DNA of 64,000 nt from Cymodocea nodosa (lineage: Eukaryota; Streptophyta; Magnoliopsida; Alismatales; Cymodoceaceae), in assembly GCA_036874045.1 (NCBI GenBank), contig CM072344.1, positions 9,024,501-9,088,500 of the forward strand. The letters are read 5' to 3'. A program made the translations under genes and the position numbers. This document shows positions 16,613 through 55,528 of the stretch, in pieces. Within the stretch, counting starts at the first letter, position 1. Each line of letters opens with the position of its first letter. The notes below the pieces were generated by a model. The model worked only from the letters and a program-made list of their open reading frames with translations, was not told the DNA's origin and ran no database searches.

Positions 16613-18535
16613 TGTTTAGAATGAAAAGTGCATAATATTAAGGGTTAAATGATGGTTAATTACATAATATTTAGCTTATCATATGAGAATTAAGCCATTA
16701 TGTTATAATTGCACTATTATATGCTTTAATGAAGGAATCTACATAATTTCAGGAAATTAATGTGAATTAAGTACATTTCTGAACTGTTGGTGAATTGCAG
16801 ACTGTGAAATTCTTAAGTATTCGAATTTTCTATTATTTTAGAGAGTTATATTTAAAGTACCGGATAGTTATGTTTTAAATGCTAAAAGAATATTCAGGTA
16901 CCAAGTAACAACTCATTGAGTTAGTCAGTTAAAATCGTAAGTTGTATGTCTGAACTCGTTAAGTTAGAATTATGCACGTGTTGAATTTAAATGCTTTAGT
17001 ATATCACATGAGCTGCACATGTTTAACTCGATAAGTTAGCATAACTATACGTGTTGAGTTACTTGAATATACACTAAGGAAATGCGTTGTGTTAGTAGCT
17101 TATAAGTTATTTCTTTATTGCACGTGTTTTATAGTTAAATTAACGAAGTAAGTCCATTGAGTTATCTGTAACTCCACGGACCATTTATTTTCTAATATGC
17201 CATTGTAGCAATTGTAGAAATAGGATATTCGAAAGAAAACCACGATTACATGTATTACGCAGGAATTCACTCGTGGAATGAAGAAGAAATCACCATCGTT
17301 GATATGAATGAAGGAAATCCAACTGATCATCTAAGCAGAAGCAATTACTACAGAAAGAAATATAAAAGAAGAGGAGAAAGACAAAAAAAGTGTGTGTGCA
17401 GAGGTGGAGAACTGCGCTAACTGTAGAAAGCGTTGGAAGTTCCCTGAAGCTCCACACCACCACCAAAATCACCAACCATCGGAGGTCTGTGAGGATACTT
17501 TCTTGATGTCGGGTCAATTCCGAGCCAAACATGGTGACTAACAACCACTGTGACAAGTGATTGCGTCGCGGGAAGGGAAGCCATTTTCACCAAGCACCGA
17601 CTCATATCTTAGGAGATCGTAAAGCTTCTAGACTTGGTTTCGAGTTGATGCCAATATGTTGAAGAGGAGATCATCTTACAATTTTGGATACGCGATTCTA
17701 TAGGGAGAGGAGGCAAGATTGTAAGTGATTAAGTTTTCAGTGGTGTAATCGCTCGCATGTAGTAACAGAAGTTTTTAATGTCGATAGAGATTTTTACATT
17801 TCACCTTTTATTCATCTTCAGGAACATATCTAAACAAAAATACCAAAAACAACAAATTATCTATGTTTATATTTAGTATTAAAGTGTTGTATTGTTTGTT
17901 TTGTATCGTGATTAATGTTATCATTATCAGTATTGTGAATGTTTTATGTTTGTTTGATTCAGAAAATAGAAAATAGTTTTATTGTTTACTGAAATTGATT
18001 CGTTCTAGATATTTAAAGATTTTAATGGTTACTATTTGAAATATTTGAATGTTAGTATTGCTTAATGATAAATCTAATATTAACTAACATTAAAGAGCTT
18101 AATTGATGTTATTTACAATCTATGGAACCACCCAATGGTTGGCCGAATTCCTTTGTAAATAGCAGTATTTAACTGGAAAGATAGACTTGTAGAGTTAACT
18201 TAAGTCCACGAGGTCAACCCGTTGAGTTAGCCATAACTCCACGAACTAAGTCCATTGTGTTAATTGTAACTCAATGGAGTGCTTACTGAATACATATAAA
18301 CTCCAATATAAAAATCGAAATAATACACAATTCTTACTCAATCTCTGTGAGATCAACTTGTACTTGCACACAAATACAATATACACTGTACACTTGTAGT
18401 TAAAATACAAATTGGAATTAATATCTAATTTGTGTGAAAGTTTGTTTGTTTACTTCTAAAAGTAATTATTGATATAAGCATAAAGAAAAATTACACAAGT
18501 TTAAAAATAGAAGTTAACAAAACCCCAATCAAGCA
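16613..18535 (+). repeat. 5' LTR of Gypsy G1
   Basis: Starts TGTTTAGAATGAAAA and ends just before the primer site. The U3 part at 16903-17130 is clearly homologous to Copia-A LTR sequence (compare 26318-26540). A stretch richer in G+C at about 17400-17760 is shared with G0 and G2. Palindromes of the GTTGAG type sit near 18214 and 18248. The 3' part carries the TGTGAGATC...TACTTGCACA block common in plant gypsy LTRs. Confidence 0.88.
17361..17368 (+). promoter_or_regulatory. TATA box in the G1 5' LTR
   Basis: TATAAAAG, conserved in G2 (60306) and in the truncated 3' LTR (56224), followed by a purine-rich stretch. It is the probable promoter of the element. Confidence 0.6.
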
Positions 18536-18539
18536 TTTC

Positions 18540-18559
18540 TAGCACTATTGCTGGGGATT
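18540..18559 (+). other. Primer-binding site remnant of Gypsy G1
   Basis: TAGCACTATTGCTGGGGATT resembles the complement of the plant tRNA-Asp 3' end (TGGCGCCGTTGCCGGGGA), the primer usually cited for Athila elements, with several mutations. G2 has a better copy at 61478. Confidence 0.65.
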
Positions 18560-18637
18560 GAGAAGCTAAGCAACTATGAGTGCTGTTTTGTTTTAATAAT
18601 AGAAGAGTGTTGTGTGTTTTATTCTATAATTAAGAAT

Positions 18638-19009
18638 ATGGCATATGCTTATGCTCAAAGATTTCTGAAACTTATAGTTAGCATATGTGAATTCTACAAT
18701 TTAGAAGGTCACGACATCTCTGATTGTTTGAAATTGAGACGATTGCAGATGGTTAGATCACATGAACAATAAATGAATTATAATCAATATAATGGAGCTG
18801 AGTATGAGAATCCTATAGTTTACCTAACTGATAGTCAATTTAGAATATGTAATATGTTGAGAGACACGGAAGTTTGGGATAAGTATGACAGACTGGTGCG
18901 TAGCTTAGAGCAAAACATGGACAAACTGGAATAATTCATGTGTCAGCAACAAGAAGTCAACCAATTAAACTATAAGGAAGAATATACAGAACCTAAAATA
19001 GATATTATA
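18638..19009 (+). pseudogene. Gypsy G1 leader ORF: nucleocapsid-like CCHC part of gag
   Basis: Starts MAYAYAQRFLK at 18638, less than 80 bases after the primer site. It carries a CCHC knuckle whose second Cys is Tyr here (CEFYNLEGHDISDC); in G2 it is intact (CEFCNLEGHNIFDC). There is no capsid domain before it. A helical stretch follows (QNMDKLE, QQQEVNQLNY). Two in-frame stops (TAA near 18770 and near 18931) break it. The frame continues exactly across the solo LTR insertion into 21198. In Athila/Tat elements such a knuckle normally follows a capsid domain in the same ORF; here that domain is 12 kb downstream (30801-31994). Confidence 0.75.
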
Positions 19010-21192
19010 TGTAACACTTTTATGTGTTGTTAAATTAACAGAAAAAGCGTAAATTTTACATTTATAATCGCAAGCACACGATGCCCATTGTAATAAGCAT
19101 GTGCAAGTACGGGTCGAATCCACAAGGAGTTTGTCTTAAATAATTTTATTAAAATGATTGTTTGATAAAACATCCACTCTATTAAATCCAAAATTAAAAC
19201 TCTAATTATGTGCAATTAAGTTACAATTTACAAAAATACAATAAAGATTTCAAAAGTAGCATAAAACTTGTTAATTCCTAGAGCTAATAGCTAGAAAACT
19301 CAAGAAAATCTTAAGTTCACGTTTCTAGAATCATAGAAATTAATCCGAATTCTAACTCTTCTTCCTTTCAACCTAGACATTGAAAAATCTAGAGAAAATA
19401 TTGGTTGGAAAGTTCATCGAGTTATCTTTAAAATGACAGTGATTTCCAGGACTAATTCACTCTAGGTTGCTGCCAAAGTCGGATTCATGAACAGTGCGCA
19501 AAAAGATTCTGAAAACTTTCCAAAAATGCACTATTGGTGTAAAAATCATAACTCAATCAAATCTCCACGAAACACCATGAAATCAATGCACCTTGAAAGA
19601 TAACTCATTTCTCTAATCAGGAAAATTTACAAGAAAACATTTCAGAATGCACAAAAGTAAGGCAACATGAAGGCGTCGAGCATAATTTCTATCACTCGAC
19701 TAGTAAAATAGAGCAGATGCTACCTTCAAAAGAATAATCGAAAAACCAAAGAAATGCATTCTAAAAAATTCCAAAAACTCTACATACGTATTGTAAACTT
19801 GAAGTACTTACAAAACAACCTATAACATGATATATAACTCTGAGAAATCAAGTCGTACAACATATGACAAAATGAGGCTCATACATGAATTTACAGCAAA
19901 TAGGATATACATGCATTCACAAGGGTTAAGAGTTAGTTTTATGCACAACATTCACACATTCACATGAAGTAACCATATTCCACGAAATATATTGTAAAAC
20001 AACTAATATTCTTAAAAAAAATCATCATTTAAATAACATACTACATGTGCACATAACAAATGAATTAAAAACCAAAATACTCATACACATATGATATGAA
20101 AATTTGATATTTAAGTATGAGGATCTCTCTTCTCCAATATACCTTTGAGTTCTCCACCTTTCTTCAAGCACGAGCTCCCTTTCAACCTTGAATCACGTCA
20201 CACCAACACACCACAGGGTTGTCACCACTTGTTGCATGTCCAAAAGAGGTCTCTAGGGTTGCTTTGAAGTGGTGGTTGCACGTCTTCAATCACTTCCAAG
20301 ATATATGAAGTTGTTGGCTTTCCTCTCAATTTTGATACTTCCTATTACCTCATCTTGAAGATCACACCCCAAGCTCTTCCAATACTACACACGTGCCTCC
20401 AATACCATCGATTTCACCCGTGGAGGTCCTTCCGTATGTCGGCTTGGAGTGGAGAGAAGGAGGTCTTCTAGTATGAGGGGGAAGACGTCTAGCTCACCAA
20501 TCTTGGAAGAGAGCTCGTCCACAACCTTGGCTAGAAGAAGGGAGGACGAAATTTTTCTTTGGAGTTCTTTTCTTGGTCCTTTGCGTGGAGGAGAAAGGAG
20601 ATCAGATGTTTCCTTGGTCGGCCATGCACTTTTCTCTTCCCTTGTCATTCATCTATGGAAAGAATTCAAACTCCTTCCAATTGAGACCTTCTAATTTAGG
20701 CAAGCTTTAATCATTGATTGAATGATTGGTGGATTGATTTGGATTTTGAATTGGACGACCATGAGTTGTTGATTTCCCATGATTTAATCTAAGGGTCCAT
20801 GTCCTCACCTATAACAACTCAAAAGATAACATTAAATGCATATGCACATTACACATAAATTGCTACTCAATTATAAAGCAAAAAATGAAAAGTGCATAAT
20901 ATATTGCTTGCTCAATTGAGGATTATTTGATTTCATATCTTAATGATAATTCTTTTAAGATATGCATGAAATCAATATATAAATTACTTATATCTACACA
21001 TGGCTAATTGACTACATGTTAATTTAATAAAGGATAAATTTATGCATTATTGACTATTTAATCCTTAATTCATGCATATGTCTAAAAATATGATTTGCAT
21101 GTAATTCCACATTAGAACATATATATTTTCACTTTATAATCCTTAACATGCATGAATTAACATATATAAAATGCACAAATTGAGACTTTACA
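19010..21192 (-). repeat. Solo LTR of a second gypsy family (Gypsy-S)
   Basis: A 2,183-base block beginning TGTAACAC and ending CTTTACA, flanked by TTATA at 19005-19009 and 21193-21197. Removing it restores the reading frame of the G1 leader ORF. The strand is inferred from a block near 19100-19130 whose reverse complement reads CTCCTTGTGGATTCGACCCG, typical of the 3' part of plant gypsy LTRs. No internal region is present. The open frames at 20385-20694 lie within the LTR and are not supported as genes. Confidence 0.88.
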
Positions 21193-21197
21193 TTATA

Positions 21198-22633
21198 TAT
21201 GAAACTGAAAAAACCATAATGAAAATTGATGAAAAATTGAATGCAATAAGATTAGATGATTTGGAAAGAAAATTAAAAGCATTGGACGAATTTACAATGA
21301 AATTACAAGTTATGCAACAAGAAAACGCAAATGAAAAATTTAATGCTACAGAAGTGCATAATTTGCAAGATATACAAACAAAAGAAAATACCAATGCAAT
21401 AGAATTTAAGAATGCAATTTAAAACTAAAAATAGTTGAAGATCATAATCACAAAAATGAAATACAAGAACATCATGAAAGTAACGAAAATCTGGAAGATG
21501 TATGTATAACATTAAGATCTAGAACTGATATACCACAGAGAATTCAAAAAGGAAGTAACATGAAGGTGGATAAGAACAAAAATCAAAATGATAATGAAAA
21601 TGTAATATCTGAAAACATAGAAATCACTGAAGAAAAATCTGAATCTGAAAATGAGACTAAAAATGATCAACCAAATGAAATGAAAGAAAAAGAATCTCTT
21701 AAATCACAATCATTAGCACCCTATCCTGAAAGATTACAACAAACATTTCTTGAAAAACAAGAAAAAATTAGAGAAATTTTTGAAAAAGTACAAGTTAACA
21801 TTCCTTTGTTAGACTTATTGTAGAAAATGCCACCTTGAGCTAAATTTCTTAAGGATTGGTGTACTAAGAAAAGAAAGTAAAAAGTTTTAAGGAAAGTCTT
21901 TTTAGCTGAGCAAAGTAGTTCCCTATTTCTGCCACAAATTTCTAAAAAGTTATCTGATCTACGAATTCCTATTATATCATGCACCATAGGAAATACCATT
22001 CTAGAAAGAACCTTAATAGACTTAGGTGCAGGCATAAATGTTATGCCGAGTGATATATTTGCATCCTTAGGATTAGAAGGCTTAATCCCTACTAGGACTG
22101 TTATTCAATTAGCTGATAGAAGTATAAGATACCCTAGAGGAAAAATAAAGGATGTCTTAATTAAAATCAAAAACTTCATATATCCTATTGATATTGTGTT
22201 TTTGGATTCCCAACAAATTAAGCATAAAAATCATGATACATCTTTAATTTTGGGAAGACCATTCTTAGCAACATCAAGGGTTGTTATAAATTGTAAAACT
22301 AGAGTCATGAAGTTAGCATATGGTAATGAGGATACTCAATTAAACATTTTCAAACTAGAAAAGTTTGAGAAGTTAGAAATGTCCTTACATACTATAGATT
22401 TTTTAGAGGATGAAGGAGATATGCTAGACGATGTGATTCAAGAAGAACTAAATAGGCAACTAAATTTTGAAACTTTAGAAGAAAGTGAAAGCATAAATGT
22501 GGAAGGAGATCAAGAAGAGATTAATATAGAAAATGAAAATGTTCAATTAGGAGCTCTAGCTTCTAATGGTCAACATTTAGATTTAAAACCTTTACCTCTT
22601 GAATTAATCTATATATTTCTAGAAGAAAAATGA
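21198..22633 (+). pseudogene. Gypsy G1 coiled-coil linker and aspartic protease
   Basis: Continuation of the leader ORF after the solo LTR. First comes a charged coiled coil (IMKIDEKLNAIRLDDLERKL) and an Asn/Glu/Lys-rich linker. Then the block typical of Athila/Tat pol N-termini follows: PYPERLQQTF, VNIPLLDLL, KFLKDWC. The retropepsin active site is DLGAG at 22019-22033, with LADRSIRYPRGKIKDVL and ILGRPFLAT downstream. A Glu/Asp-rich segment leads to RT. Stops at about 21820 and 21836 and frameshifts near 21420 and 22710 disable it. The protease motif itself looks intact, unlike in G2. Confidence 0.85.
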
Positions 22634-22722
22634 ACATGTCCAATCATTATTACTTCAGATTTAAAAGAGGAGCAAATTTCTAAATTAAAAGATGTGGTAA
22701 AAACTTATAAAGAGGCAAGACT

Positions 22723-25466
22723 ATGACTAATATAAAAGGGTTAAGTGCAATTTTATGTTGTCACCACATATATTTAGAAGAGAATGCTAAACCAGTTAGA
22801 ATTCCTAAGAGGAGATTAAATCCAAACCTTAAAGAAGTAGTTAGGAAAGAAATAGTGAAATGGTTAGATAATGACATAATTTATCCTATTTCTGATAGCT
22901 CATGGGTTAGTCCAATCCATGTAGTTCCCAAGAAATCGAGATTAGGAGTTATTAGGAATGAAAGTTAGGACTTGATACCTACTAGAATTCAATCAGGCTA
23001 GAGAGTGTGTATAGTCTATAGAAAGCTGAATGTTGTGACTAGGAAAGATCATTTTCCCTTACCTTTCATAGATCAAATGCTAGAGAAATTAGCAAGGCAA
23101 GAATATTTTTATTTCCTAGACAGGTATTCAGGATATAACCAAGTGCTAGTAGCATTAGAGGATCAAGAGAAAACAACTTTCACCTGTCCTAATGGAACTT
23201 ATGCTTTTAAGAAAAAGTCATTTGGATTATGTAATGCACCAGCTACCTTTCAAAGGTGTATGTAGGGCATATTCACTAGAATGTCTAAAGATTTTTTAGA
23301 AATATTTATAGATGATTTTACTGTTTATGGAACTTCATATGAAGTGTGTTTAAACAATTTAGACCAAGTATTAAAATGCTGTGTGGAAAAAAGTCTAGTT
23401 CTAAATTGGGAAAAATGTCATTTCATGGTTAAACAAGGAATAGTCTTGGGACATGTTGTTTCAAAGAAAGGGTTGGAAATAGATAAAGCTAAAATAGAAG
23501 TAATTTCTAATCTACCAGAACCTAAATCAGTAAAAGATATTAGATCATTTCTAGGACATGCTAGATTTTATAGAAGATTTATTAAAGATTTCAGCAAAAT
23601 AGCTAGACCTTTAACTAATCTATTAAAAGTTGCCCATTTAACTTTGATAAAAATTGCAAAGAAGCATTTTTCAAGCTTAAAACTATCTTAATCTCAACTC
23701 CTATAATACAAGCACCTGATTGGAGCCATCCATTTGAATTAATGTGTGATGCATCTGATTTTGCTGTAGGAGCAGTGTTGGGACAGAAGATAGAAAAATC
23801 TCCTAGAGTGATTCATTATGCAAGCAAAACTTTAAATGATGCTCAAGTTAATTATACAACTACTTAAAAAGAGCTGTTAGTTATTGTGTTTGCCTTAGAA
23901 AAATTTAGATCATATTTAATTGGAGCTAAAGTGATAGTATACACGGATCATTCAGCTTTAAAACACCTAATAACAGAGAAAGAGACTAAACCTAGATTGA
24001 TCCAATGGATATTATTATTACAAGAATTTGATCTAGAAATTAAAGATAAAAAAGGTTGTGAGAATGTAGTAGCAGATCATTTATCAATATTACAAATAGA
24101 AAAATCAAATATTGAAATTAAAGATAATTTTCCTGATGAACAGTTAATGACCATCAACACAATGCCTTGGTATGCAGACATAGTTAATTACTTAGTTATT
24201 GATTTAACACCTAAGGATTGGAATAGATAGGATAAGAAATTGTTCTTTTCAAGAGTAAAATATTACTATTGGGAAGACCCATACTTATTTAAGAAATGTC
24301 CTAATCTGGTTTTAAGGACGTGTATTCTAGAAACTAAATATTAGAGCATATTATCATTCTACCATGACCAAGCATGTGGAGGGCATTTTGGTTTAGGAAA
24401 AGCTGCTGCCAAAATTCTGCAATGTGGATTTTATTGGCCAACACTATTCAAAAATGCTCATAAATATTGCTTAAGTTATTTAAGATGTCAACAAATAGGA
24501 AGAATATCAAAGAGGAATATGATGCCTCTTAATCCTATTGTTGAGGTTGAAATCTTTGATGTGTGGGGAATAGATTTTATGGGTCCATTTCCTATGTCTA
24601 ATCAATTTAATTATATATTGTTGGGAGTGGATTATGTATCTAAATGGATAGAAGTTATTCCTACAAAAACTAATGACAACAAAGTGGTACATTTTATAAG
24701 AACTAATATAATTGCTAGATTTGGAATACCTAAAGCTATTATCAATGATAGAGGAACTCATTTCTGTAATAGAAGTTTTGAAGCCTTAATGAAGAAATAT
24801 AGAGTAAATCACAAAATTGCAACATCATATCATCTGTAAACAAGTGGACAAGTAGAAAGTGCAAACAAACAAATTAAGTTAATCTTAGAAAAAGTAGTAA
24901 ATCCTACTAAAAAAGATTGGGCTAATAGATTAATAGATGCACTTTGGGCTTATAGAACTGCTTATAAGACAAGCTTAGGTATGTCACCTTTCAGGCTAGT
25001 ATATGGAAAAAGTTGTCATTTACCAACTAAAATTGAACATAAAGCTTATTGGGCAATAAAAACTCTGAACACTAATTTAAATCAAGTTGCTGAAAATAGG
25101 AAAATGCAATTGATTGAATTAAAAGAATTTCATAATGAAGCTTATTCGAAAACTATAAGAGAAAAAGAGAAAATGAAGTTTTGGCATGACAAGAAAATTA
25201 TTCCAAAAACCTTTGAAATAGGATAAGAAGTATACCTTTACATGACTAGACTCCATAACCATCTAGGAAAATTAAGATCTAGATGGGCAGGACCTTACAT
25301 AATTCGAAATATTTATTCCTATGGAGCTATTGAAATTGAAAATCCTAAAAATTAGAATATATTTAAAGTAAATGGATAAAGACTTAGACCTATTTTGAAA
25401 ATACCAAAAAGTTCCTTTGGAATTATAGAAGAAGTAAGAGTAGAGGACTACTCGAGCTTTACTTAG
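22723..25466 (+). pseudogene. Gypsy G1 pol: RT, RNase H, integrase
   Basis: RT blocks: RVCIVYRKLN (about 23005), FLDRYSGYNQ (about 23117), FGLCNAPATFQRCM and the catalytic FIDDF at 23305-23319. A frameshift near 23640 precedes RNase H (MCDASDFAVGAVLGQ, about 23740; [10 protein letters not shown], about 23938). Integrase has its zinc-binding His/Cys region (CGGHFGLGK ... YCLSYLRCQQ, 24370-24495) and core (WGIDFMGPFP, about 24563; NDRGTHFC, about 24745; SGQVESANKQ, about 24843). It ends about 25466 without a chromodomain, as in Athila/Tat. Stops such as TAG for Trp in SGWRVC show decay. Confidence 0.88.
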
Positions 25467-25937
25467 AAATTATCTATAGTAATGTGTTAGTTATATAAAA
25501 AAAAAAAAAAACCTATTTAAACATAGTCACGATTCAACCGAAAGAAATTATCGGTTTTACTGAAACATATATTAAAAGAAAAAAATCATTGCGGTTCAAC
25601 CGATAGGATCCATCGATCTAACAAAAACATAAAAACATAAAAAAATCTAGATATTATATTAAGTAAAAATGTCGATTTTACCGAAGCATAGTATCAGTTC
25701 AACCGGTAGAAGAAAAAAAAAAGAGTATTTAATTTCGGTTCAACCGAGGAATATAACGATTTGACTGAAATGCTAAAATGTTGAAAAATTAAGAGTTGGT
25801 TTGACCAAAAATTCTTCGCTTTAGACCGAAGTAAAAACTATTATTATAAGTATTTTTATTAGTTATAACTTTACAAAAAGTCTGTTAAGTTACACTTAAC
25901 TCAACGAACTTACTCCGTTGAGTCTAGGATAAGTTAA
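25467..25937 (+). other. G1 spacer after integrase, with a third class of short inverted motifs
   Basis: No gene. It starts with a run of A (about 25499-25511). An array of inverted CGGTT motifs follows at about 25520-25850: GGTTCAACCG, TCGGTTTTACTGAA and their complements recur at least six times. Then come GTTGAG-type motifs (25875-25925), in which the solo Copia-A LTR is inserted. Confidence 0.6.
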
Positions 25938-27584
25938 TGTTGAGTATTTTATTTTGATGATGTGTGCTGAATGAAAGTAATCATATTTGCTCAATTACTA
26001 TTGCTTGTGAAAAGAAATTAACAACATCAATTAATACAGAAAAAGCTTACTGATATAAATACATGTCTGTATTGGATCTGAAATTATACTAAGTTAATAA
26101 CTAGTCGTTTCATTGCATTAATTTCTCATTTAACTAAACATTAAGTTAACGTGTGTTTTTATTGAAAAGCATGATATGTTTCAAAGTTATATCTTCTGTA
26201 TCATGAACAATGCACGTTTAGATAACTTGTTAAGTTAGAGTTTTGTTCGTATAGAGGTCACGTGAGAACTCGTTAAGTTAGAGGCTTAAAGGTTAAAATA
26301 GGTCATGTGAGAACTCGTTAAGTTAGTGAGTAAAAGAAGAGACGAACTCGTTAAGTTAGTGTTGTACACGTAGTGAAATTATAAGTTACGAATGTTATAT
26401 TGTATTACGTGAGGTGCACATGTTTAACTCGTTAAGTTAACATAACTAAACGCATTGAGTTGCTATATTAAACACTAAGGCAACGTGTTAGGTTAGCGTT
26501 ATAAAAACTTAAGTTGTTATTTTTGCACATGGTAAAATTCTTATTATAAAAACATTTGTTTATTACTAGTTTGTTGAGTTATCTGTAACACAATGGAGAT
26601 GGTTCGTTGAGTTAGCGTAACACCACAGTGATGGTTCGTTGAGTTAGTGTAACATGACAGACTTTGTTCGTTGAGTTAGCTACAGTACTTGTCACGTGAA
26701 TTGGCACATGAGGAACTCGTTAAGTTAGAAACGTTAAGTTAATATCTACTTGTGTTACTCGTTTAGTTAACATTAAAGTAACGACTTATTATTACACTTA
26801 ATGAAAAATTTTGGACGAGAAAGTTTATTTTGCAGGAAATTTTTCAGAGATCTAGGATTGATGATTAAAGAAAATTCGAAATGTAAACGTGGGTCAAAAC
26901 ATGTGTATTTCGATGAAGGAAAAAGAAAAGACGTGAAGAAGTGGAAAACTGGTAGTGATTAAACATGGAGGATATGCTTGAAATGCAGATACAGTATAAA
27001 AGGCGTAGAGTTCTCGTTGATCAAACTATCCCTGCACACCAAACGAAAAATCTTTTCAAGGATCCAAAACACTTTTCAGGGAAAAGCTCTCAGGTCAAAG
27101 AAAATCTAGTGAAGCAAATAAAGTCAGATTTATGTCACTAAAAATCTAAAGTATCAAATAGAAGAAAATTCAGTGAAGTAGAAAAAGGTAAGATTTATGT
27201 CATTGAAGATCTGAAGTATCAGGAAAAAGCAAATTCGGTGAAGTAGAAAAAGACAAGATATTCGTCATTGCAGAATTGCTGAAGAAGAAAAAGAAGAAGA
27301 AGAAGAAGAAAGATCTCAAATAGGGAGAAATGTTTTAAATTCCGTAAATTAGTTTTCTTTGTTTGTAGTTATGAAATTGTATAGATAAAACATGGTATTG
27401 ATATATAATTGCATCTACAATTTCAGAGGAGAATTGAATTATATATTGTAATTGAAACCTTGAATAAAAATGATTTTATGAAAATAGTGTCTTGACTTGT
27501 TTTTAAGTTTTGAAGTTTCAATTTTAATCAAAAAAGTTGAAAAACACAATTCACCTCTCTCTTGTGTAGCCATACGATCCTATA
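25938..27584 (+). repeat. Solo LTR of Copia-A
   Basis: A 1,647-base LTR starting TGTTGAGTATTTT and ending CCTATA (the usual CCTACA with one change). It is flanked by GTTAA at 25933-25937 and 27585-27589. No internal region is present, so it is a remnant of LTR-LTR recombination. It carries the G-box/AACTCGTTAAGTTAG array at about 26220-26730 and a TATA box. Confidence 0.92.
26995..27003 (+). promoter_or_regulatory. TATA box in the solo Copia-A LTR
   Basis: TATAAAAGG at the position conserved in all Copia-A LTRs of this window. Confidence 0.7.
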
Positions 27585-27850
27585 GTTAACGAACTTACCC
27601 TGTTGAGTTAACTATAACTCAACAGAGTACTATAGTTAAGTCCATAGACTTAGTCTGTGGAGTTAACTATAATTCCATGGCGAGGTAAATGAGAGAGCGA
27701 GAGTTTGCGCGGGAAAATGACCCAATTACTCACTAAAACTTAAGATTTATTTATACTAAAACTTAAGATTTGGGGGCATTATCCATATACTCATTTAGAA
27801 CTTATAACAATAGAGATCAGAGTGATTCTGTTCCGTTCCATCACACCACG
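27585..27850 (+). other. G1 palindrome cluster ahead of the extra ORF
   Basis: A perfect inverted repeat lies at 27600-27625: 11-base arms (CTGTTGAGTTA and its complement) around ACTA. A weaker unit follows near 27655-27680 (GGAGTTA, ACTA, TAATTCC). Then ACTAAAACTTAAGATTT occurs twice (about 27732 and 27755). The extra ORF begins shortly after. Confidence 0.7.
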
Positions 27851-43510: not shown

Positions 43511-45526
43511 TTACACATCACATAGCCTACAAATACCTAAATTTAATATTATGTTGCAGAATGTATTTTCGTCTAGAGGTTTTGTAAATATATCAGCTAA
43601 TTGATTTTTACTAGACACAAATTCTAATTTAATTCTTCCTTTAATTACATTATCTCTTAGAAAATGATGTCTAACCTCTATATGCTTTGCTCTTGAACGT
43701 AATACAGGATTTTTGGAAAGATTTATTACAGAACTACTATCACAATAAATCTCAGTTGTATCATAAGATAATCCAAAATCTTCCAAAGTTTGCCTTATCC
43801 ACAGAATCTGAGTGCAACACAATGCAGCAGCAACATATTCAGCTTCTGTAGTAGAAAGTGCTACACAATTTTGCTTTTTACTAAACCATGACACCAAATT
43901 ATTTCCCAATAATTGACATGTGTCACTGATACTCTTTCTATCAGATTTAGATCCTGCATAATTAGCAACAGTATATCCTATAAGATCTATTGAACTATCC
44001 TTAGAATAATACAGTCTGAAATTTTTAGTTCCTTGTATATATCTAAATATTCCTTTAACTGCAATTAAGTGTGATTCTTTAGGATTAGATTGAAATCTAG
44101 CACAAACACACACAGCAAACATAATATCAGGTCTACTAGTAGTCAAATAAAGTAAAGAACCAATCATACTTCTGTATTTTCTTTAATCTATAGATTTTCC
44201 TATGTCATCAATATCTAACTTTAAAGTAGTACTCATAGGAGTTCCTCGAATCCTTGTATCATTAAAATTAAATTTCTTAAGCATTTCATCTGCATATTTT
44301 TCCTGATTTAAAAATATACCTTTATCCATTTGCTTAATTTGAAGTCCTAGAAAATATGAAAGTTCTCCTATCATACTCATTTCAAACTGATTAGTCATCT
44401 CTTTAGAGAATATTTCTATCAACTTATCAGAGGTAGCTCCAAAGATTATATCATCCACGTATATTTGAACAACAATCTGATCTTTACCATCTCTCTTAAT
44501 AAATAGAGTATGATCCACTTTTCCCATGATATAGCCTTTTTCTATTAAAAAAGTAGACAATCTTTCATACCAAGATCTAGGTGCTTGCTCCAAACCATAT
44601 AAGGCTTTCTTCAATTTATACATAAAGTCAAGATTTTTAATATCTTCAAATCCAGGTAGTTGTTTTACATAGACTTCTTCATTAATTAAACCATTTAGAA
44701 ATGCACTCTTTACATCCATTTGATATAATTTAAAATCCATATAACAAGCATAGGCCAATAATATTCTAATACTTTCTAACCTAGCCACAGGAGCAAATGT
44801 TTCATCATAATCTAATCCTTCTTCCTGTGTATACCCTTGTGCAACTAATCTAGCTTTATTCCTTATAATTTGACTAGTTTCGTTAGTTTTGTTTCCAAAT
44901 AGATCCATATGTATAAGTTCTAAGACTCTCTTGCTTGAAATATCAGTTTTGGATTTAAAAGAGTTTTTGTGAAGTTTACCTAACTCACATGCATCACACA
45001 TAAAGTTCTTTGAGTATTTAATCTTTGGTAAACCTCTCACTAAATGTTTTCTAGATAGTTTATGTAACAGTTTCATATTTATATGCCCAATCCTTCTATG
45101 CCATAGATATGCATCACTAGTTTCAGCTAGCAAACATGAATTTAAATCAACTACACTAGAAGGTAAAGATAAAATACATATAGAACCTTTTCTTTTAGCA
45201 ATAAACTTAATTTCATCTGTATTTTTATCAATTATTTTGCATACATTATCTTCAAACACTACATAATATCCATTTTCAGTTAGTTTTATGACACTCAGCA
45301 AATTAAATCCTAGGTTTTCTACATATAGTACATTTGAAATAACACAAGTAGGAGTTATTTGAACATTGCCCATACCTATGATTTTATCTTTGCTTTTGTT
45401 TCCAAATGTTACACTTCCTTTCATGGTACTTGTAAAATTTTGTAATAGACTTTTCTGTCCGGTCATGTGACTCGACGCTCCACTGTCCAAGATCCATTTT
45501 GATGTTGTTTCCTCCTACAACACAAA
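43511..45526 (-). pseudogene. A3 pol with in-frame integrase deletion
   Basis: Protease DSGAS (about 45488-45474), GAG-pre-integrase ([20 protein letters not shown]) and the first integrase block HMDLFG. Then the frame passes directly into RT ([21 protein letters not shown]). About 1.1 kb present in A1 (about 4884-5990) is missing, including the second Asp and the Glu of the integrase core. The join lies in a short match (ATTTGGA/ATTTAGA). The frame stays open, so protease, RT (YVDD about 44462-44451) and RNase H form one ORF with a single TAA near 44180, where A1 has CAA. It ends LCDV at 43511. The deletion is the key defect; the rest is the best-preserved pol in the window. Confidence 0.9.
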
Positions 45527-47785
45527 TTAAGAAAAACTTTTTCTTGGTACCCAATGTTGTTGAGGACCAAGTTCATTAATCGCATATTTCTTCTTTTTGT
45601 TTAAAAATAGTTTAACATTATCATTTATATTCTTATTAGTTGTAAGTACTATTGATTTATCATTAGCTTTATACTCACATATAGCATTGTTGCTTTTACA
45701 ATCATTCTTTTTGTTTTCAGATGTAGTATAATCAAGACCAAACAGATTTTTATCAGATGTTAATTTATTTTGGTCATGCTTATACATTTCAGTAAGTTCA
45801 TACCAAGATTTTGTACTTGTATTAACATTTTCCGTACATATAAAATCTTTTTCTGCACAAGAATTTTTAGTTTTATCACATGCAGAATGAGTAATTGGTC
45901 TAATACCAGTGTATTGAATTACATGCTCAGGTTTCTGAATTTTCAGTTTATTACAATTGTCTGAAATTTTAGAAACATTAGAAACTGAATTTCTAGAACA
46001 AGAAACAAGATTTTTAGAAACATTTATAGTCATGTTAGAAGTATAATTTGACAAATCACATTGATTTATATTATTACTACATGATTCGTCCTTTGAAGTA
46101 CCTACTTCTACATATTTATTACCTTGTTTCATAATAAAAGGAATTTTAGTCTTAGATTTACTTGAACTACAACTAATAAATCCTTTATTGGTTTGAGATT
46201 CAGGATATTCAGGATAATCAAATCCTAAGCCAAATTTATAAGACACCGCAGGGGTACTAGTTAGTTTGTCTAACTTAGTTTGACTTAAATTCCATTTCTC
46301 AATGGTGGAATTTAAATCTCTCTCTCTCAGTTTTAATTTATCTATCTCTAATTCAAGTTCATTTATATTGTTTCTCAACATTTCATTTTCAGATTCTATC
46401 TTTAATTTTTCAGCATTTATATTTTGTATTTGTTCATGCGAGATACATTCATTAAATCTAAATTTTTGCAAATCTCTAGCATGATTTTCATTATTACATT
46501 TAAACTTTTCTAATGTAGTAGACAGGAAACAATTTTCTTCTTCCATAATAGATGAAGATTTTCTAATATTCTTATTTTCTAGTTTACATATTTTAAGATT
46601 TTGTAGTAATGCATGATAAGCACATAATAATTCATCAAAGTTGAAATCTGAATGACTTTCAGGATCAGATATTACCTCAGACTCATCTGCCATGAAGCAC
46701 ACATGAGCAACGTCTTCTAACTCTTGTTCTCCTTCTGAATGTGAAGATTTTGATGCTGATTCCTCAAATTCAGACTCTTCAGACGTGTCATCCCAAGTGA
46801 CCTTCAAAGCCTTTTTCTTGTAAAACTTTTTCTGAGTTTTCTAAGCCGTCTTCTTCTGATTTGTCCTACTTTGCTTTTCATTTTTCCTTATAGGGCAATC
46901 TGGAGAAAGATGTCTAGGTTTCTTACAATTGTAACATACATACTTTCTGGATGAAGAATTCTTGTCATTTAGTGATTTTGATGTTGAGGGTTTATCATTC
47001 TTGTTCCTTTGCTATTTCCTAGCTTTTCATGCTTTCTTGAATTTCCTAGTCAGCAAGATCAAATCCTCATCAGAATCGGTAGATATATCAGAACCTGAAT
47101 TAATTTCGAAGGCTATTTCTTTCTTCATTTTTGGTTTGTTATGACTCAGTGATTCATTTAATTGAACTTCATAAGCTGTTAAGTTTCCTATATGTTCATT
47201 CATGGTATAAACATTTAAATCTTGTGATTCCTCAATTGAAGTTACTTTCTGAGACCATTTGGAACTTAGGGATCTGAGAATTTTCCTCACCAAATCCTTC
47301 TGTTCAAAATTCTTTCCTAAACATTTTAAAGAGTTTATGATATCAAGAAATCTGGAAAACATCTCAGAAATATTTTCGTCTTCATGCATCCTAAAGAGTT
47401 CATACTTATCAATCAACATGTTTATTTTAGTCTCTTTAACTTGAGAAGTACCTTCATGTGAAACTTCTAATGCATGCCACACCTCATAAGCAGATTTATA
47501 TGCCGACACTTTATTGAACTGTTCATAACTCAATGCACAAAATAAAATATTTAAGCCCTTAGCATTCAAAGTTTCATTTTCTTTTTCAGTAATTGTCCAA
47601 GTATTATAAGGAGTACTTAACGGAGTATATGGTTTAGAAATCATGAACCACAACTTATGATCTATACTTTGAAGAAAAATAGTCATCCTATATTTCCAAT
47701 ATTCAAAATCTATTCCATCAAATAAAGGAGGATGATTAAGATTTTGGCCTTCATATAAAGAAAAATTATCATTTCCAATAGCCAT
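45527..47785 (-). pseudogene. Copia A3 gag
   Basis: 752 codons in one frame from MAIGNDNFSLYEGQ. Domains: UBN2-type gag domain (PPLFDGIDFEYWKYRM, EGTSQVKETKINMLIDKYE), a CCHC knuckle with all four ligands at about 46940-46899 (CYNCKKPRHLSPDC), an acidic stretch (WDDTSEESEFEE), a long coiled coil (about 46600-46260) and a Ser/Asn/Cys-rich tail ending HWVPRKSFS. Stops occur only at about 47027 and near 46840-46990, around the knuckle. The TAA at 45527 is followed in frame by a TAG four codons later and then by protease, as in A1. Confidence 0.88.
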
Positions 47786-47970
47786 CTTACCTTAGACTTT
47801 TCAACCTATTTGATTTTAAACAGTCTAAAAGCTTTAAAACAACTTGAGCCTTAAATCAAGAAAGTTAAACGTATGCTCAGATATTAATTTCTGTTTAAAA
47901 ACAAGGAAGGTAGAATAAGCAATGATATTAAATAAGTTGGTATAGATTTTATATCAAAGATTATTAACAA
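47786..47970 (-). other. A3 leader between primer site and gag
   Basis: Untranslated leader. Its gag-proximal part (about 47790-47915) matches 1871-1999 of A1, which places the A1 break about 55 bases after its primer site. On the minus strand GTAAGATGG is the context of the gag ATG. Confidence 0.7.
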
Positions 47971-47983
47971 AGCTCTGATACCA
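47971..47983 (-). other. Primer-binding site of A3
   Basis: Minus-strand TGGTATCAGAGCT, two bases inside the 5' LTR. It is complementary to the 3' end of initiator tRNA-Met. Confidence 0.95.
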
Positions 47984-47985
47984 CT

Positions 47986-49739
47986 TGTAGAATCGTATGG
48001 CTACACAAGAGGGGGGTGAATTGTGTATTTTTAATATTTTCTGAAATATAATTGAAACTTTAAATCTCAAAAAACAAGTCGAGACAGTGTTTTCATAAAA
48101 TCATTTTTATTCAAGGTTTCAATTACAATATACAATTCAATTCTCCTCAGAAATTGTAGATGCAATTATATCTCGATACCATGTATCATCTAAACAATTT
48201 CATAACTACAAATAGAGAAAACTAATTTGCGAAATTTAAAACATTTCTCCCTATTTGAGATCTTTCTTCTTGTTCTTTCTTCTTCTTCAGCAATTCTTCA
48301 ATGACGAATATCTTGTCTTTCTCTACTTCACTGAATTTGCTTTCTTATGATACTTCAACTCTTCAACAACATAAATCTGACCTTTTTTGCTTCACTGAAT
48401 TTTCTTCCACTTGAGAGATTTTGCCCAAAGAGGTGTTTTTGATACTTGAAAAAGATTTTTCTTTTGGTGTGTAGGGATGGTTTGATCCTTGAAAAGATTT
48501 TTCTTTTTGTGTGCAAGGATGGTTTGATCAATGAGAACTCTATGCCTTTTATACTATATCTTCATTTCATGCATATCCTCCACATTTAATCACTACTAGT
48601 TTTCCACTTCTCCACGTCTTTTCTTTTTCCTTCATCGAAACACACACGTTCCAACCCACGTTTATATTTCAAATTTTCCTTTAATCATCAATCTTGAATC
48701 TCTGAAAAATTTCCTGCAAAATAAACTTTCTCGTCCAAAAGTTTTTCATCAGTGTAATAAGAAGTCGTTACTTTAATGTTAACTAAACAAGTAACACAAG
48801 TATATATATATAACTTAATGTTTCTAACTTAACGAGTTCACCATATGCCATTTCACGTGACAAGTACTATAGCTAACTCAATGAACTAAGTCCGTGGTGT
48901 TATGCTATCTCAACGAACCAGCTTAACCTTTCTTTCAAAAGGTTAAATGATAACTCACAGAAAACAGTTTAAGTTTCGGATAGTTACGGATGTAAGTCAC
49001 CGAAAAAATCTTTATATGATAAAACTAGTGAGACACGTGTCAAGACCTGAAAACATGACTTAAGTTACCTTTCGGATAGTTACGACTGTAAGTCTCCGAA
49101 AAACTTTAACTCACTGATTCAGTAATAAACAAATGTTTTTATAATAAGAATTTTACCATGTGCAAAAATAACAACTTAAGTTTATAACGCTAACCTAACA
49201 CATTGCCTTAGTGTTCAATATAGCAACTCAACGCGTTTAGTTATGTTAACTTAACGAGTTAAACATGTGCACCTCACGTGATACAATACAACATTCGTAA
49301 CTTATAATTTCACCACGTGTATAACACTAACTTAACGAGTTCGTCTCTTCTTTTACTCACTAACTTAACGAGTTATCACGTGACCTATTTTAACCTTTAA
49401 GCATTTAACTTAACAAGTTCTCACGTGGCCTCTATACAAACAAAACTCTAACTTAACGAGTTGTCTAAACGTGCACTGTTCATGATACAGAAGATATAAC
49501 TTTAAAACATATCATGCTTTTCAATAAAACCACACGTTAACTTAACGTTTAGCTAAATGACAAATTAATGCAACGAAATGACTAATTATTAACTTCAGAT
49601 CCAATACAAACAAGTATTTATATCAGTAAGTTTTTTCTGTATTAATTGATGATTTTAATTTCTTTTCACAAGCAATAGTAATTGAGCAAATATGATTATT
49701 TTCATTCAGCACACATCATCAAAACGAAAATACTCAACA
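47986..49739 (-). repeat. 5' LTR of Copia A3
   Basis: 1,754 bases, collinear with 37411-39164 without length change. It ends TGTAG at 47986 (minus-strand ...CGATTCTACA, one change from the consensus CGATCCTACA). The motif array is at about 48830-49460. Confidence 0.93.
48545..48553 (-). promoter_or_regulatory. TATA box in the A3 5' LTR
   Basis: Reads TATAAAAGG on the minus strand; probable promoter of A3. Confidence 0.7.
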
Positions 49740-51039: not shown

Positions 51040-52488
51040 TGTTAGAACTCTAGTATTTTGATAATGCAAAAACCTGTGTGAGGAAATATATTGTATTTCA
51101 CAATGAAGATAGTGCAGCTAAAGTTCAGAAGGTAGATAAATAGAATCAGGTAGTTTAGAATTTACTACTATAAAGCTATAAGAAAATCGGATAGTTACCA
51201 AGCCAAGTATCTAGAAGAAAGTTAATTTTCGATAGGTTACAAGGTTAAGTATCCAAAGAGTAAAGTAGTAGAAATACCATCAGACAGTTAGAATGATAAC
51301 TATCCGAATTTACAAAGCCTTCGGAGAGTTAAATGATCAGACAATTAAGGAAGATTGAATGATCAAAGAGTTAAGGAATTAATTATCTGCAAGCTAAGGG
51401 ATTTTTCGGTAAGTTAGAAAAGCTAACTATTCGAAACTTAAGTCATTCAATTACCTACATGCAGAAATCCAGAACAAAAAACTCAAGTGATTTTTCAATG
51501 AGTTAGAATGCTAACTATCCGAAAAATAGGAATTTTCGGTGACTTATAGGTATAACCATCCAAAACTTAAGTCAGTCTATTATGCACATGCTAAATTAGA
51601 TAAAGCAGTCAGAATTTTAATGAAGGATTTCAGAGGGTTACTGTAGCTAACTATCCCATAAGTTAAATAATAGTTCGGTAAGTTACAGCTACAAGTATTC
51701 GATTGAATGACAACTCATTGTACGACCTGAAATCCTACATAGCAGAAAGACATAAGTGGTTTTTCGGTGAGTTAAAGATGGTCTTCAGTGAGTTACACAT
51801 ATAACCATCCGAAAATCTAAGGAAATCGGAAGGTTGCTTACTGAACATCAGATAGAATGGTAACTTACTATTTTTGGGACTGCTACATATCTAGTATAGT
51901 AGAAAACATCCGTTGGAAGTAAATATGTTCGTTATACTTCTTGGTATATATATGAGAAGTAAAGAGAAGAAAAGAGATAGAGAAAACGAATATATCATAC
52001 TGTGAGCTACACAAAAATTCCATATACACTCTCAAGGCAGCAACATTCAAGAATACTCTTCAAGAGTCACTGCAATAGAAAAGATCCCTGTGCACAAACT
52101 CTGATAGAAAGTTCAAGCTGTTGGTTCGTGAGTTTCAACTAGAAAACTCATTGTTGGTTGAGAGCTTTAACCTAAAAGCTCGAAGACAGGTTGGTTGTTG
52201 AGCTTATACCTAAAAGCTCTAAGTGTTGTTTCTTGCTTCAACCTGAAAGCAAGTATTGTAAGTACTTGACTACTTAGTGAAGCCCAAGTGTATCTTGGGG
52301 GTGGACTAGCCAAGTTGGTGAACCACCTAAAAATTGTTGTGTGTTCCTTTCTTCTTATTGTTGTGCATCGTCTTTAATTTAGTTCTACACTCTGTTTAAT
52401 AGAATCAGTTGATTCTAAATTAAGATAAGTAACAAATTACACACCTTCACCATTCACTCCCCCTCTAGTGAGCCTATCGATCCTCACA
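51040..52488 (+). repeat. 3' LTR of Copia-B
   Basis: 1,449 bases. It matches 32152-33558 with scattered transitions and one extra stretch of about 42 bases (about 51361-51402) inside the palindrome array (51187-51815). It ends ATCCTCACA, followed by the AGTAG duplication. Confidence 0.92.
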
Positions 52489-52493
52489 AGTAG

Positions 52494-52549
52494 CTATGTT
52501 AATTTTGTCTCTGTTAAATTTTTGTTTATGTTATACAGAATCACAATAG
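52494..52549 (+). promoter_or_regulatory. Leader of the F-box gene with possible splice acceptor
   Basis: A T-rich run ends in TTATACAG at 52538, eleven bases before the ATG; this resembles a plant 3' splice site. With Copia-B removed, a donor-like GTAAGT (32140) lies only about 57 bases upstream, shorter than most plant introns. A donor further upstream is the likelier partner if the site is real. Confidence 0.3.
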
Positions 52550-53641
52550 ATGGAATTGATGAAATTACCACTAGATGCACTAAGGGAAGTACTGAGTAAC
52601 CTATCAGCTAAAGATCTGTGTAGATTGTGTTGTGTATCAAAAGAAATTAAAGACTATGTTAGAGAAAAATATTTTCATGGACTACAAGCTGTAAAAATGA
52701 CTAAGATTAGATATGGATTTTTATGAAAGTCATTTAATCGTAGTTCAATCAACTATGAATATCTGAATATGGAAGAAACTACTAGAATTCCACCCAATAC
52801 ATTAGAAGGAATAGATCATATTATGGGGATAGATGAAGGATTAATTATTTACAAAACCAAACCAAGGTATGCAATTCTGTTACCTGACATTTTGATTAGA
52901 AATCCTATCACTAGATAAGAATGGAATATAGGAAGGCCTAATAGATTTGAAGTACCAACTGAAAATTGTGGGTTAGCTTTAACATTTTCTTATAAAATTT
53001 TGACCATTCATGAAAAATTGTATTACTAGAGACCAATTGGAAATTGGGATGAAGATTTATGTTTAAGTGTGTATAATTTTCTGAATAGATCTTGGACTAA
53101 AAATACTATGATATATCTAGGACTGAAAGCATTAATTAACAACATACATGTCATACTTGATGGATATATATATCTAGTCACAGATATATCAGTTGCATTT
53201 AGATCTGATTTATACATAGTAAGTATAGATAGTTATGATGATGACTTTATAGAAATATTACCTATACTGAGTGATATAGCTAAACCACCATCTGCAGAAT
53301 ATGATAAAATTCAATTAGAAATGTGGTATAATGAATATGATGATCCTACTTTATGTCTGATAAGATGGTGGGATGAATGGAGGAAATTTCAAATATGGAT
53401 TATCAAATACCTAAATGAATGGATGTGGGAAGAGGAATATATTGAAATAGATGTAGAAATAGAAATAGCTACATTATCTTGAAACAAAAAAGGATCCATG
53501 TCTGCATTTCATTTCATTAATGGAAATACACTTATATTTAGTATTGATAACATACTGCAAGTTTACAAGTTAAAAAGGAAAACGGACTGCATTAAAACAG
53601 AATTAATAGTAAGAAGAATTATGCCTAAAAAGTTTGCTTGA
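52550..53641 (+). pseudogene. Captured F-box protein gene inside Gypsy G1
   Basis: 363 codons, no intron and no frameshift, with four in-frame stops (codons 59, 123, 160, 311). The N-terminus is an F-box: LPLDALREVLSNLSAKDLCR followed by LCCVSKEIKDYV, residues about 6-40. In host proteins this binds SKP1 in SCF ubiquitin ligases. The rest fits an F-box-associated propeller-like domain: GIDEGLIIYK, LIRNPITR, VILDGYIYLVTD, LYIVSIDSYDDDFIEI, FINGNTLIFSIDN. The length suits such proteins. It lies between the element's gag and its 3' noncoding module, preceded by the element's own palindrome. I infer transduplication of a host gene into G1, later decayed. A chance ORF is unlikely given the length and layout; the exact F-box subfamily is not recognised. 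Confidence 0.75.
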
Positions 53642-55518
53642 ACTAACACATTTATTCCATTTGTTACTACTTTTCAATCATGTTCTTAAATTGTGATTCT
53701 ATGCTTTTAATGGTGGGTGTATTCTGCATTTATTTTTAGAAAAAAAAAAAGAAGAAAGAAAAATTTTAGTTTTAGTTTTATCTTATAAAAAGAAAAGAAA
53801 AGAAAAACAAAATATCAATCCAGTTTGTTGGTATTTATACTGGGAAACCAACTGGCTTGCTTGTGAGCCACCAAAGGCATAGGAGCTTGGGTTCCACACA
53901 AGACACTGATTTAATAAGTTATGTTTTGTTATTTTGTTATATATTTTGCTTTTATTTATGAATGGAAAGTTTTTCAGAATCAAAAATCGGAAGATATGGA
54001 AGGAGATACAAAAGAAAAAGGTATGTAATTGATTACTTATCCTGAATTTACATTTAAACTCAGTTCATGGAGTTATTCATTAACTCAACAAACTAAGTTT
54101 GTTGAGTTTGGTGCTAAGTCAATGAAACAATATTTCTGCCTGCTAGCATTTACTGTATTTACTGTAAAATCTTTTACATTGAGGATAATGCAAAATGTAG
54201 GTATGGGGGGAGGTAATTTGATTAAAATCTAAGTAATTTTGTTAATTAGAGGAATTAGAATGGTGCTACAAAGTTTTGTGGAAATTAAAAATCTTTTTTT
54301 ATGAATTTGTTGTAACTATCCGATAATTGAGACTGTAAAATTTTTAAGAACTATAACTGCTTTAATGTTATATTTAGAATCTTATATAAGATACTACAAA
54401 TATTACTATTAATACAAATCTAGATACAGTATCTTATGTTTTTGCTGAATTTTATGAGTTTAACAGTTTCACAATTTTAAAAAGAAAACATAATGCTTAA
54501 TTGAAACTCAGTAAATTATCTGAAATCCTAAAAGAGTTGAAATGTTGATTTTTGGATTAAATGAAATGCATATGATCAAAGATACATTTAATTTGATTGA
54601 CTAAACTTGTAGAATGATTTATGTGTAAATCTTATTAAACTATAGAAAAGTATGAGCTTATTGATATGGATTCATATTTTCAGTAAATAATAAAAGCAGG
54701 ACTATACGAGATTTGTGTTTTATTGCATCTGTATTAATGAAATAAGTATATATACTATGTTGAAAAGAAAAAAAAGAGGAAAAAAAGTGAAAAACTTTGA
54801 GAGTTTATTGACTTGTTTGATCATGAGCCTTTTGTACTTGAGCAGATAGGTATGTAAAGATTGTTGACCTAAAAAAGGACTCTTTAAATCTGGCAACCTA
54901 AGATCTTGATCAGATATGGGATTATTGACTAAAAGCTCGATACATGGGTACACTAGAAAGCTCTTGTATGATTCAAGCTTTTCAAATTAACTTTTAAAGT
55001 ACAAATATGCATATACTGTTCTGAAAAGATAAAAGTGTTTTGTGAAATACAGAAATCTTTTGAATTAAGTATACTTTATGTTATCTAAGATTATTGAAGT
55101 ATGAATGTAGAATAGACTTTTGAAGTTGTTTATTAGAGATACACTTCATTATTCTACTTGTTTTAATCATATTGAATTGGATTGTGTTTTGATTCGTATG
55201 TAGTTGAAATTTATTCTGAAAATCATATTGGAAAATTCAAGATAACAGATGTTTGAAAAGAAGAAAAAAATGATAATATAATTACCACCTATGTGGTGCT
55301 AATATATTTTGTATGTAATTTACATATGTTTTAAATATATTTGCAGGTTGAAGAGGAAAAAATAATGTTAAAATAGATTACTAAAAAATACAGAATATCT
55401 ATATAGTAATCTAATTTATGTATTCTAAAGAAGAACAAAATGAAGAATTAATTCTAGCAACTTTAGAAAGACCAACTAGTTTGATCTTAGTTTGCTAAGG
55501 GACTAGCAAAATTTAAGT
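53642..55518 (+). other. G1 3' noncoding region, including the module shared with Copia-A
   Basis: No gene is supported. A+T-rich to about 54040, with a GTTGAG-type palindrome at about 54055-54110. A purine run at 54201-54212 (ATGGGGGGAGG) resembles an internal polypurine tract. From about 54380 to 55450 the sequence matches the Copia-A pol/extra-ORF spacer (7440-8530), best at about 54790-55000. Stops occur in all frames. Confidence 0.7.
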
Positions 55519-55528
55519 ATGGGGGAAG
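55519..55528 (+). other. Polypurine tract of Gypsy G1
   Basis: ATGGGGGAAG next to the start of the 3' LTR. Confidence 0.8.

Follow-up and report, generated by a model that had tools for sequence, protein, structure and literature searches.

A Ty3/gypsy family of Cymodocea nodosa with a zinc-knuckle motif ahead of protease and a capsid-type gag behind integrase

We analysed a 64,000-nucleotide stretch of Cymodocea nodosa DNA (GenBank assembly GCA_036874045.1, contig CM072344.1, positions 9,024,501 to 9,088,500 of the forward strand; hereafter the window, in whose own coordinates features are given, on the + strand unless stated) and found that one of its long terminal repeat (LTR) retrotransposons, G1, carries gag sequence in two places, a zinc-knuckle motif ahead of the protease and a capsid-type gag behind the integrase. 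Gag before pol is taken as the LTR retrotransposon order, and the G1 family departs from it. The order recurs in an abundant family whose copies are single units and whose measured coding modules change mostly silently. We consider it highly probable that this is a large Athila-like Ty3/gypsy family, built as 5' LTR, primer site, an open reading frame (ORF) for knuckle, linker, protease, reverse transcriptase (RT), RNase H and integrase, then ORF X, capsid gag, F-box ORF, tail, polypurine tract and 3' LTR, and that it stems from a lineage with gag behind integrase. An initial annotation, made from the letters of the window, had proposed the split gag, and copies in the host genome, their target-site duplications (TSDs) and matched lists of places bear this out; ORF X (2.3 kb), the F-box ORF and the broken state of the G1 knuckle had escaped it. 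It had also known of no gypsy lineage described as having the order, and in the open-licence literature, within the portions of the sources available to us, we likewise found no report of gag behind integrase, of a permuted gag or of an F-box in an LTR retrotransposon; papers cited below are drawn on from such portions too.

The window has 30% GC and is a nest of LTR retrotransposons, of plant type by their nearest proteins. By alignment, the G1 5' LTR (TGTTTAGAATG...) occupies 16613-18532, starting as do the LTRs at 55529 and 59629 and with an approximate 3' end, and the 3' LTR occupies 55529-56269, its 3' part deleted and the cut lying at about 56269. A degenerate tRNA-Asp-type primer binding site follows the 5' LTR at 18540-18557, agreeing at 13 of 18 positions with the 18 bases that we take to be the tRNA-Asp site (18/18 in copies c5, c7 and c8), and the polypurine tract ATGGGGGAAG was read at 55519-55528. 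The two LTR pieces form a pair, because they are identical to one another at 675 of 741 positions (91.1%, gap-free alignment), as against 79.7-83.3% for each of them when compared with the G2 and G3 LTRs, and because they have in common a block of ~200 bp that is missing from those of G2 and G3. The 39-kb span of G1 is mostly due to insertions, which comprise a solo Copia LTR (25938-27584; perfect TSD GTTAA at 25933-25937 and 27585-27589), the element Copia2 (32152-52488; perfect TSD AGTAG at 32147-32151 and 52489-52493), whose LTRs at 32152-33558 and 51040-52488 are 90.5% identical, a further Copia inside it, E1 (37404-49739, - strand; LTRs 96% identical, candidate TSDs), and a 2.2-kb piece (19019-21191, no strand assigned) recognized by comparison with G2, from which it is missing. 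Without them, integrase, ORF X, capsid gag, F-box ORF and polypurine tract adjoin within one element. G1 is a single Ty3/gypsy, Athila-like element, and its order is not due to nesting.

The 5' ORF of G1 (MAYAYAQRFLK...) starts at 18638 and runs to 18960, with a knuckle-like motif of the pattern C-X2-C-X4-H-X4-C at 18686-18727, ~130 bp 3' of the primer site, and no capsid domain. The earlier description of this ORF as a knuckle without a capsid stands as to the presence of the motif and the absence of the capsid; the knuckle itself is broken, its second cysteine being gone (CEFY..), and a Pfam scan of the G1 and G2 5' ORFs gave no zinc-knuckle match, the call being made by pattern only. Five of eight copies have it intact (G2, c1, c3, c6 and c7), a cysteine being lost in G1, c5 and c8. 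G2, a second copy at 59629-63666, was rightly said to show the same capsid-less 5' ORF: its LTR is followed by a primer site (14/18), an ORF with an intact knuckle from an ATG at 61577, and protease, until a Copia cuts it at 63666.

In G1 the ORF leads, as had been read, into protease, RT, RNase H and integrase, which Pfam and protein matches now identify. A linker with an ITLRS-like motif, conserved among copies (21192-21880), precedes the protease (21881-22633; PF13650, E=3.5e-4, under the curated cut-off), which has 314 protein matches at E<=0.001, the best being a Cephalotus gag-asp_proteas protein. The RT lies at 22711-23691 (PF00078, E=7.9e-8 on 23266-23688; the rest by eye and conservation), RNase H at 23868-24230 (PF17917, E=4.2e-16 on 23868-24227; its start, by eye, in the preceding frame at 23619-23867) and integrase at 24345-25226 (PF00665, E=8.1e-12, and PF17921, E=5.2e-8, on 24345-24839; to 25226 by eye). 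From integrase to the solo LTR there is no + strand frame of at least 50 amino acids.

Behind the solo LTR lies ORF X (27767-30096), broken in G1 and weakly matched to PF20167 (Transposase_32; E=8e-4). The same profile gives E=3.8e-6 in copy c9, both values being under the Pfam cut-off, and a fold model from one sequence reached a predicted local distance difference test score (pLDDT) of 39.8. A spacer follows (30097-30752), in which motifs of the GTTGAGTTA/TAACTCAAC family were counted six times, and then the 3' gag (30801-31994), which consists of capsid, SYNPNWRNH motif and linker and has four in-frame stops in G1. The capsid is recognized by PF03732 both on the stop-free piece 30753-31214 (E=1.2e-7) and, with the letter X placed at the four stops, across the whole frame (E=2.2e-19). 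Aligned with three relatives (the gag of L065, P0136 and P0128), the G1 gag has a gap at the knuckle segment and keeps the SYNPNWRNH motif, so that both earlier statements on this frame, a capsid-type gag devoid of a knuckle and the retained motif, hold. Metagenome relatives (P0001-P0003) are 60-71% identical to it; a pattern search for the capsid in viral contigs gave five matches, none of them confirmed. The F-box ORF (52550-53482; PF00646, E=1e-11), broken in G1 and in a frame that may extend to ~53640, is located between capsid and polypurine tract; in c9 it also matches FBA_1 (E=0.012, under the cut-off).

We searched the host genome (374.6 Mb in 28 contigs) with pieces of the element and scored the best 150 of 5594 candidates for the capsid, of 6221 for integrase and of 4465 for the knuckle, and the frequencies that follow therefore describe best-scoring places and not the genome as a whole. 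Ten copies (c1-c10) were taken from the upper part of the capsid list, about every tenth row, and read for 10 kb on each side. All ten have the F-box ORF after the capsid; integrase lies upstream of the capsid in nine, c4 being without its 5' side, and ORF X (X4) likewise in nine, c7 being without it. The knuckle ORF directly follows LTR sequence in all six copies whose own 5' end was covered (c1, c3, c5, c6, c7 and c8). Both ends were located in five copies, of 14,660-16,866 bp, and these have a 5-bp TSD, perfect in four (c5, c6, c7 and c8) and agreeing at 4/5 bases in c3. The initial annotation had called for a look at host-genome copies with target duplications, and those located here have the domains in the same order. 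Copy c7 (L021/L022) has its perfect TSD yet is without the X ORF, the gap being flanked by two spacers that both have the repeat motif.

Sampling by the other pieces gave the same order. The primer-site block stands in front of the knuckle at 10/10 knuckle-sampled places (LTR detected at eight, primer site by pattern at eight), and the 800 bp preceding the knuckle contain a capsid at none of the ten; primer-site block, knuckle and linker follow in order at the 5' end of all six integrase-sampled copies, with no capsid in the ~0.4-0.5 kb covered before the knuckle. Capsid and CCHC knuckle together at the 5' end, the finding that would have spoken against the proposal, were seen in neither sample. 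Three of the six integrase-sampled copies have the capsid 5 kb behind integrase, where 1.5 kb was read; in i4 a deletion fuses capsid to mid-protease. At eight further integrase loci X1 comes next in seven, and the remaining one is G1 itself, where the solo LTR intervenes. When the lists of best-scoring places were matched on the same strand within 12 kb, gag lay downstream of protease or integrase in all 18 pairs listed and upstream in none, the pairs representing 17 distinct places, G1 among them. The order of knuckle 5' and capsid 3' is a trait of the family and not a nesting accident, since independent copies with TSDs of their own share it. A second element hidden behind the integrase was considered as well and is rejected because of the TSDs and the copies.

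A nested insertion would put the 5' part of a second gypsy element behind the G1 integrase and make the order accidental. The window is densely nested, and gag preceded by an extra ORF would resemble the start of a Tat/Ogre-type element. The first copy survey hid matches covering less than 35% of the query piece, and the stretch from integrase to capsid was re-examined in the ten copies free of that filter; it holds no second capsid and no LTR piece longer than 45 bp. Expected LTR remnants between integrase and gag are thus absent above this length, although a 45-bp LTR-like stretch, 87-89% identical to part of the G1 LTR, stands ~0.6 kb before the capsid in 5/10 copies (c4, c5, c6, c9 and c10). 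It covers a GTTGAGTTA repeat common to Gypsy and Copia LTRs, and for this reason we take it for that motif rather than for an LTR relic; we consider a remnant of an old fusion possible but less likely. The nested Copias are bounded by perfect TSDs, the independent copies carry their own, and sister elements, described below, have gag in the same place. A family-wide order refutes a recent accident and leaves room only for an ancient fusion at the base of the family, and we regard nested insertion as extremely improbable.

The motif family touches several of these regions. With close variants, GTTGAGTTA/TAACTCAAC motifs number 70 in the window, whereas 20 shuffles gave 2 on average and 5 at most, for a motif picked post hoc. 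They are dense at 16957-18234, 25883-27660, 30544-30700 and 38236-38880, mostly in the G1 and Copia LTRs and in the G1 spacers among integrase, X and capsid. Possibly they are a shared control element or a recombination site.

A sister group with an undivided gag came to light with P0136, an ordinary Athila-type gag whose own knuckle lies at residues 298-311. The match passes the knuckle (to residue 314 or further) in 25 of 118 scored places and ends earlier in 93, as expected for the G1 family. We read three of the 25, and in each of them integrase stands ~0.2-0.5 kb ahead of a gag with capsid, knuckle and WRNHPNFSW-type motif, one with an open frame of 463 amino acids and two broken; at five more sister places gag lies 4.3-6.0 kb behind protease. 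The L064 element has an F-box ORF behind gag; the other two, read for 1.6-2.2 kb past their gag, showed none. At the sole 5' end read, that of L066, an 18/18 tRNA-Asp primer site is followed, 134 bp behind it, by the start of an ORF with two CX2CX4HX4C motifs and then by a TLRSG motif. A whole gag 3' of integrase is thus present in a lineage. Most simply, the G1 family would have lost the knuckle from its 3' gag: a relocation or duplication of the whole gag, followed by loss, is suggested by sister gags that keep a knuckle 3' of integrase and by the two knuckles at the 5' end of L066.

These sister elements also bear on circular permutation, which the initial annotation had offered as a possible origin; in its clean form, an ordinary Athila would have been opened between capsid and knuckle, for instance by way of a circle with one LTR. 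If X is an env-like ORF, the series knuckle, protease, RT, RNase H, integrase, X, capsid is the ordinary order rotated by one step. Against it, capsid and knuckle stand together 3' of integrase in all three sister gags read, two knuckles lie at the 5' end of L066, and the G1 3' gag retains the post-knuckle motif and linker; relocation or duplication of a whole gag, with later losses, fits better. We judge a simple permutation unlikely.

More room must be given to the idea that the 5' knuckle is no remnant of gag, but a zinc-binding module newly gained by pol and unrelated to the gag nucleocapsid, gag relocation and knuckle gain being separate events. The sister 5' ORF of L066 has its two knuckles besides a gag with a knuckle, and an extra pol knuckle is reported in the bdelloid element Juno (PMC5408684). 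Against this, in the G1 family a linker and then the ITLRS motif come after the knuckle. That succession resembles what we take to be the end of an ordinary Athila gag. The motif is too short for a tree, and we hold a separate gain to be a serious possibility, if not the one we prefer.

The coding modules were compared by pairwise ratios of non-synonymous to synonymous change (dN/dS; Nei-Gojobori, ratio of means, stops skipped) among the ten capsid-sampled copies. The values are 0.25 for capsid (45 pairs), 0.37 for the capsid tail (45), 0.25 for X (36), 0.43 for the F-box ORF (45), 0.34 for integrase (36), 0.49 for RT (28), 0.56 for RNase H (27), 0.66 for protease (28) and 0.37 for the linker (21). 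Every measured module lies below 1, neutral decay after insertion notwithstanding, and elsewhere in the genome open frames across integrase reach 1319 amino acids. The mostly silent change in the capsid (dN/dS 0.25) indicates that it is probably used.

This pattern is relevant to whether the family is non-autonomous, its particles being made from the capsid of another family and its 3' gag being a captured helper or a decoy. Plant families lacking gag exist, among them BARE-2 (cited in PMC11963269) and Retand, in which seven clusters lack GAG and two lack both GAG and AP (PMC11963269), and the G1 gag has no knuckle. Yet dN/dS is lower in capsid and X than in the other measured modules, a comparison biased by sampling on capsid score, and an ordinary gag-pol source was not seen: open frames at the 118 P0136 places do not exceed 505 amino acids, and capsid is joined to protease at 1/80 scored places with P0132 and 0/100 with P0004, in searches that are weak with all three queries, few places having been read and the gag part of P0004 being only 25% identical. 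Dependence on another family's capsid accordingly seems to us improbable.

Several observations, besides the 45-bp stretch, weigh against the arrangement and history that we favour. Gene order was read at a minority of the 118 listed gag places. Three integrase-sampled copies (i1, i5 and i6) have no capsid at the expected position, where other sequence, nothing recognized or, in one of them, the tail of the element was read. The single joined case among the 80 places (C6:7856990-7858213), where 88 bp separate capsid from protease, may be either an element of ordinary order or the product of a deletion as in i4. The knuckle has a dN/dS of 0.76 (15 pairs, ~70 codons; a weak estimate), in addition to a cysteine lost in 3/8 copies. 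The choice of copies by capsid score lowers capsid dN, the pairs are related, with significance not assessed, and all ten measured copies contain stops.

As to classification, the family has the marks of Ty3/gypsy elements: two LTRs, a primer site, a polypurine tract, a 5-bp target duplication and the series protease, RT, RNase H and integrase. The Ty3/gypsy order is given as GAG-PROT-RT-RH-INT (PMC6317226), and neither the family nor the sister elements place gag first. The tRNA-Asp primer site of Athila is matched in full in c5, c7, c8 and L066, and the proteins that resemble the G1 capsid and protease are presumably Athila-type plant proteins. Athila, Calypso and Diaspora (Ty3/gypsy, OTA clade) share with the family this primer site and the order from protease to integrase, and most members have an extra ORF 3' of pol; however, they have a single gag-pol ORF with gag first (PMC1142308), whereas gag is here a separate gene behind integrase, split in the G1 family and followed by an F-box ORF. 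Because a single gag-pol ORF is not present, we file the family as Athila-like and not as a full member, an affinity suggested by its protease and capsid matches.

The initial annotation had also seen a fit to Tat/Ogre elements, which, with Retand, are likewise long and rich in extra ORFs. Their marks differ from what we find: an archaeal-type second RNase H is that of Tat (PMC6317226) and a tRNA-Arg primer site that of Ogre (PMC9289625), whereas the G1 family has a tRNA-Asp site, RNase H and integrase pieces that are 114 bp apart, no Pfam match to a second RNase H in the scanned pieces, and its extra ORF between integrase and gag. We reject a Tat/Ogre element in rotated order on account of the primer site, the lack of a visible second RNase H and the position of X.

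We picture an ancestor in which the whole gag (capsid, knuckle and linker) would have stood as its own gene behind integrase, the knuckle later being lost from the 3' gag in the G1 family and the remaining one forming the start of the pol ORF. Genomic RNA would be translated into a polyprotein of knuckle, protease, RT, RNase H and integrase, and X, capsid and F-box protein would be made from 3' RNAs that are spliced or start internally, a route proposed for env-like ORFs; splicing is reported for barley Bagy2 (PMC7264820). Capsid could then be made in excess with neither frameshift nor readthrough, and the knuckle on Pol may help to attach both Pol and RNA to the shell formed by the capsid. 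As for the F-box protein, it probably acts as an adaptor of a host SCF ubiquitin ligase, by which a host factor would be removed. By analogy, a silencing factor is a plausible target, since the poleroviral P0 protein, which has an F-box-like motif, can target AGO1 (PMC6593998). P0 is a viral F-box-type protein too; it acts on AGO1, whereas any target of the element's F-box is putative. The mostly silent change in this ORF makes it a candidate counter-defence gene encoded by the element. The full proposal, in which the lineage abandoned the gag-first order for knuckle-pol first, gave the capsid gene its own RNA and fixed an F-box adaptor aimed at silencing, we put forward as tentative.

Two other systems invite comparison. 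In orchids, Ty3/gypsy elements that carry an ORF for a 2-ODD RNA demethylase (PMC9289625) likewise have a host-like regulatory gene fixed in a family, but the gene is another one, the elements are Ogre/Tat relatives, and the available text does not report a relocated gag. The bdelloid rotifer elements Juno and Vesta (PMC5408684) offer a pol with an additional knuckle (Juno), a gag devoid of a knuckle (Vesta1b) and modular ORF3s, and differ in that gag behind integrase is not reported in the part of that paper at hand. Gag-last lineages could have been filtered from surveys that discard odd domain orders, because a large plant survey dropped all elements with an unexpected order as likely mispredictions (PMC6317226). 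With thousands of candidate places, a separate 3' capsid gene offers a test of how the Gag:Pol ratio is set and Pol is packaged in the absence of a Gag-Pol fusion.

Some observations concern the surroundings of G1. The element sits in a host Copia, which resumes at 56274; at the insertion site (16612/56274) ~630 bp of that Copia are gone together with the 3' part of the G1 3' LTR. LTR identities by BLAST (G1 89.2%, Copia2 90.5%, E1 96.1%) agree with the age order of the nesting; the gap-free G1 value gives no age separation from Copia2. The edges of the 2.2-kb insertion carry a short AT-rich repeat. The non-coding tail of G1 (54367-55431) is ~75% identical to Copia elements of the window, about 1 kb of it matching the region behind RNase H at 7454-8512, 14617-15449 and 42443-43370, a likeness that points to sequence exchange between Gypsy and Copia families. 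E1, the youngest Copia, is without ~1.1 kb (at 44889-44908) that is present in the element C1 (4895-5979) and includes the SH3 part beside integrase, and Pfam finds gag_pre-integrase and RT in its ORFs and no integrase core; by its sequence E1 appears to be a non-autonomous derivative.

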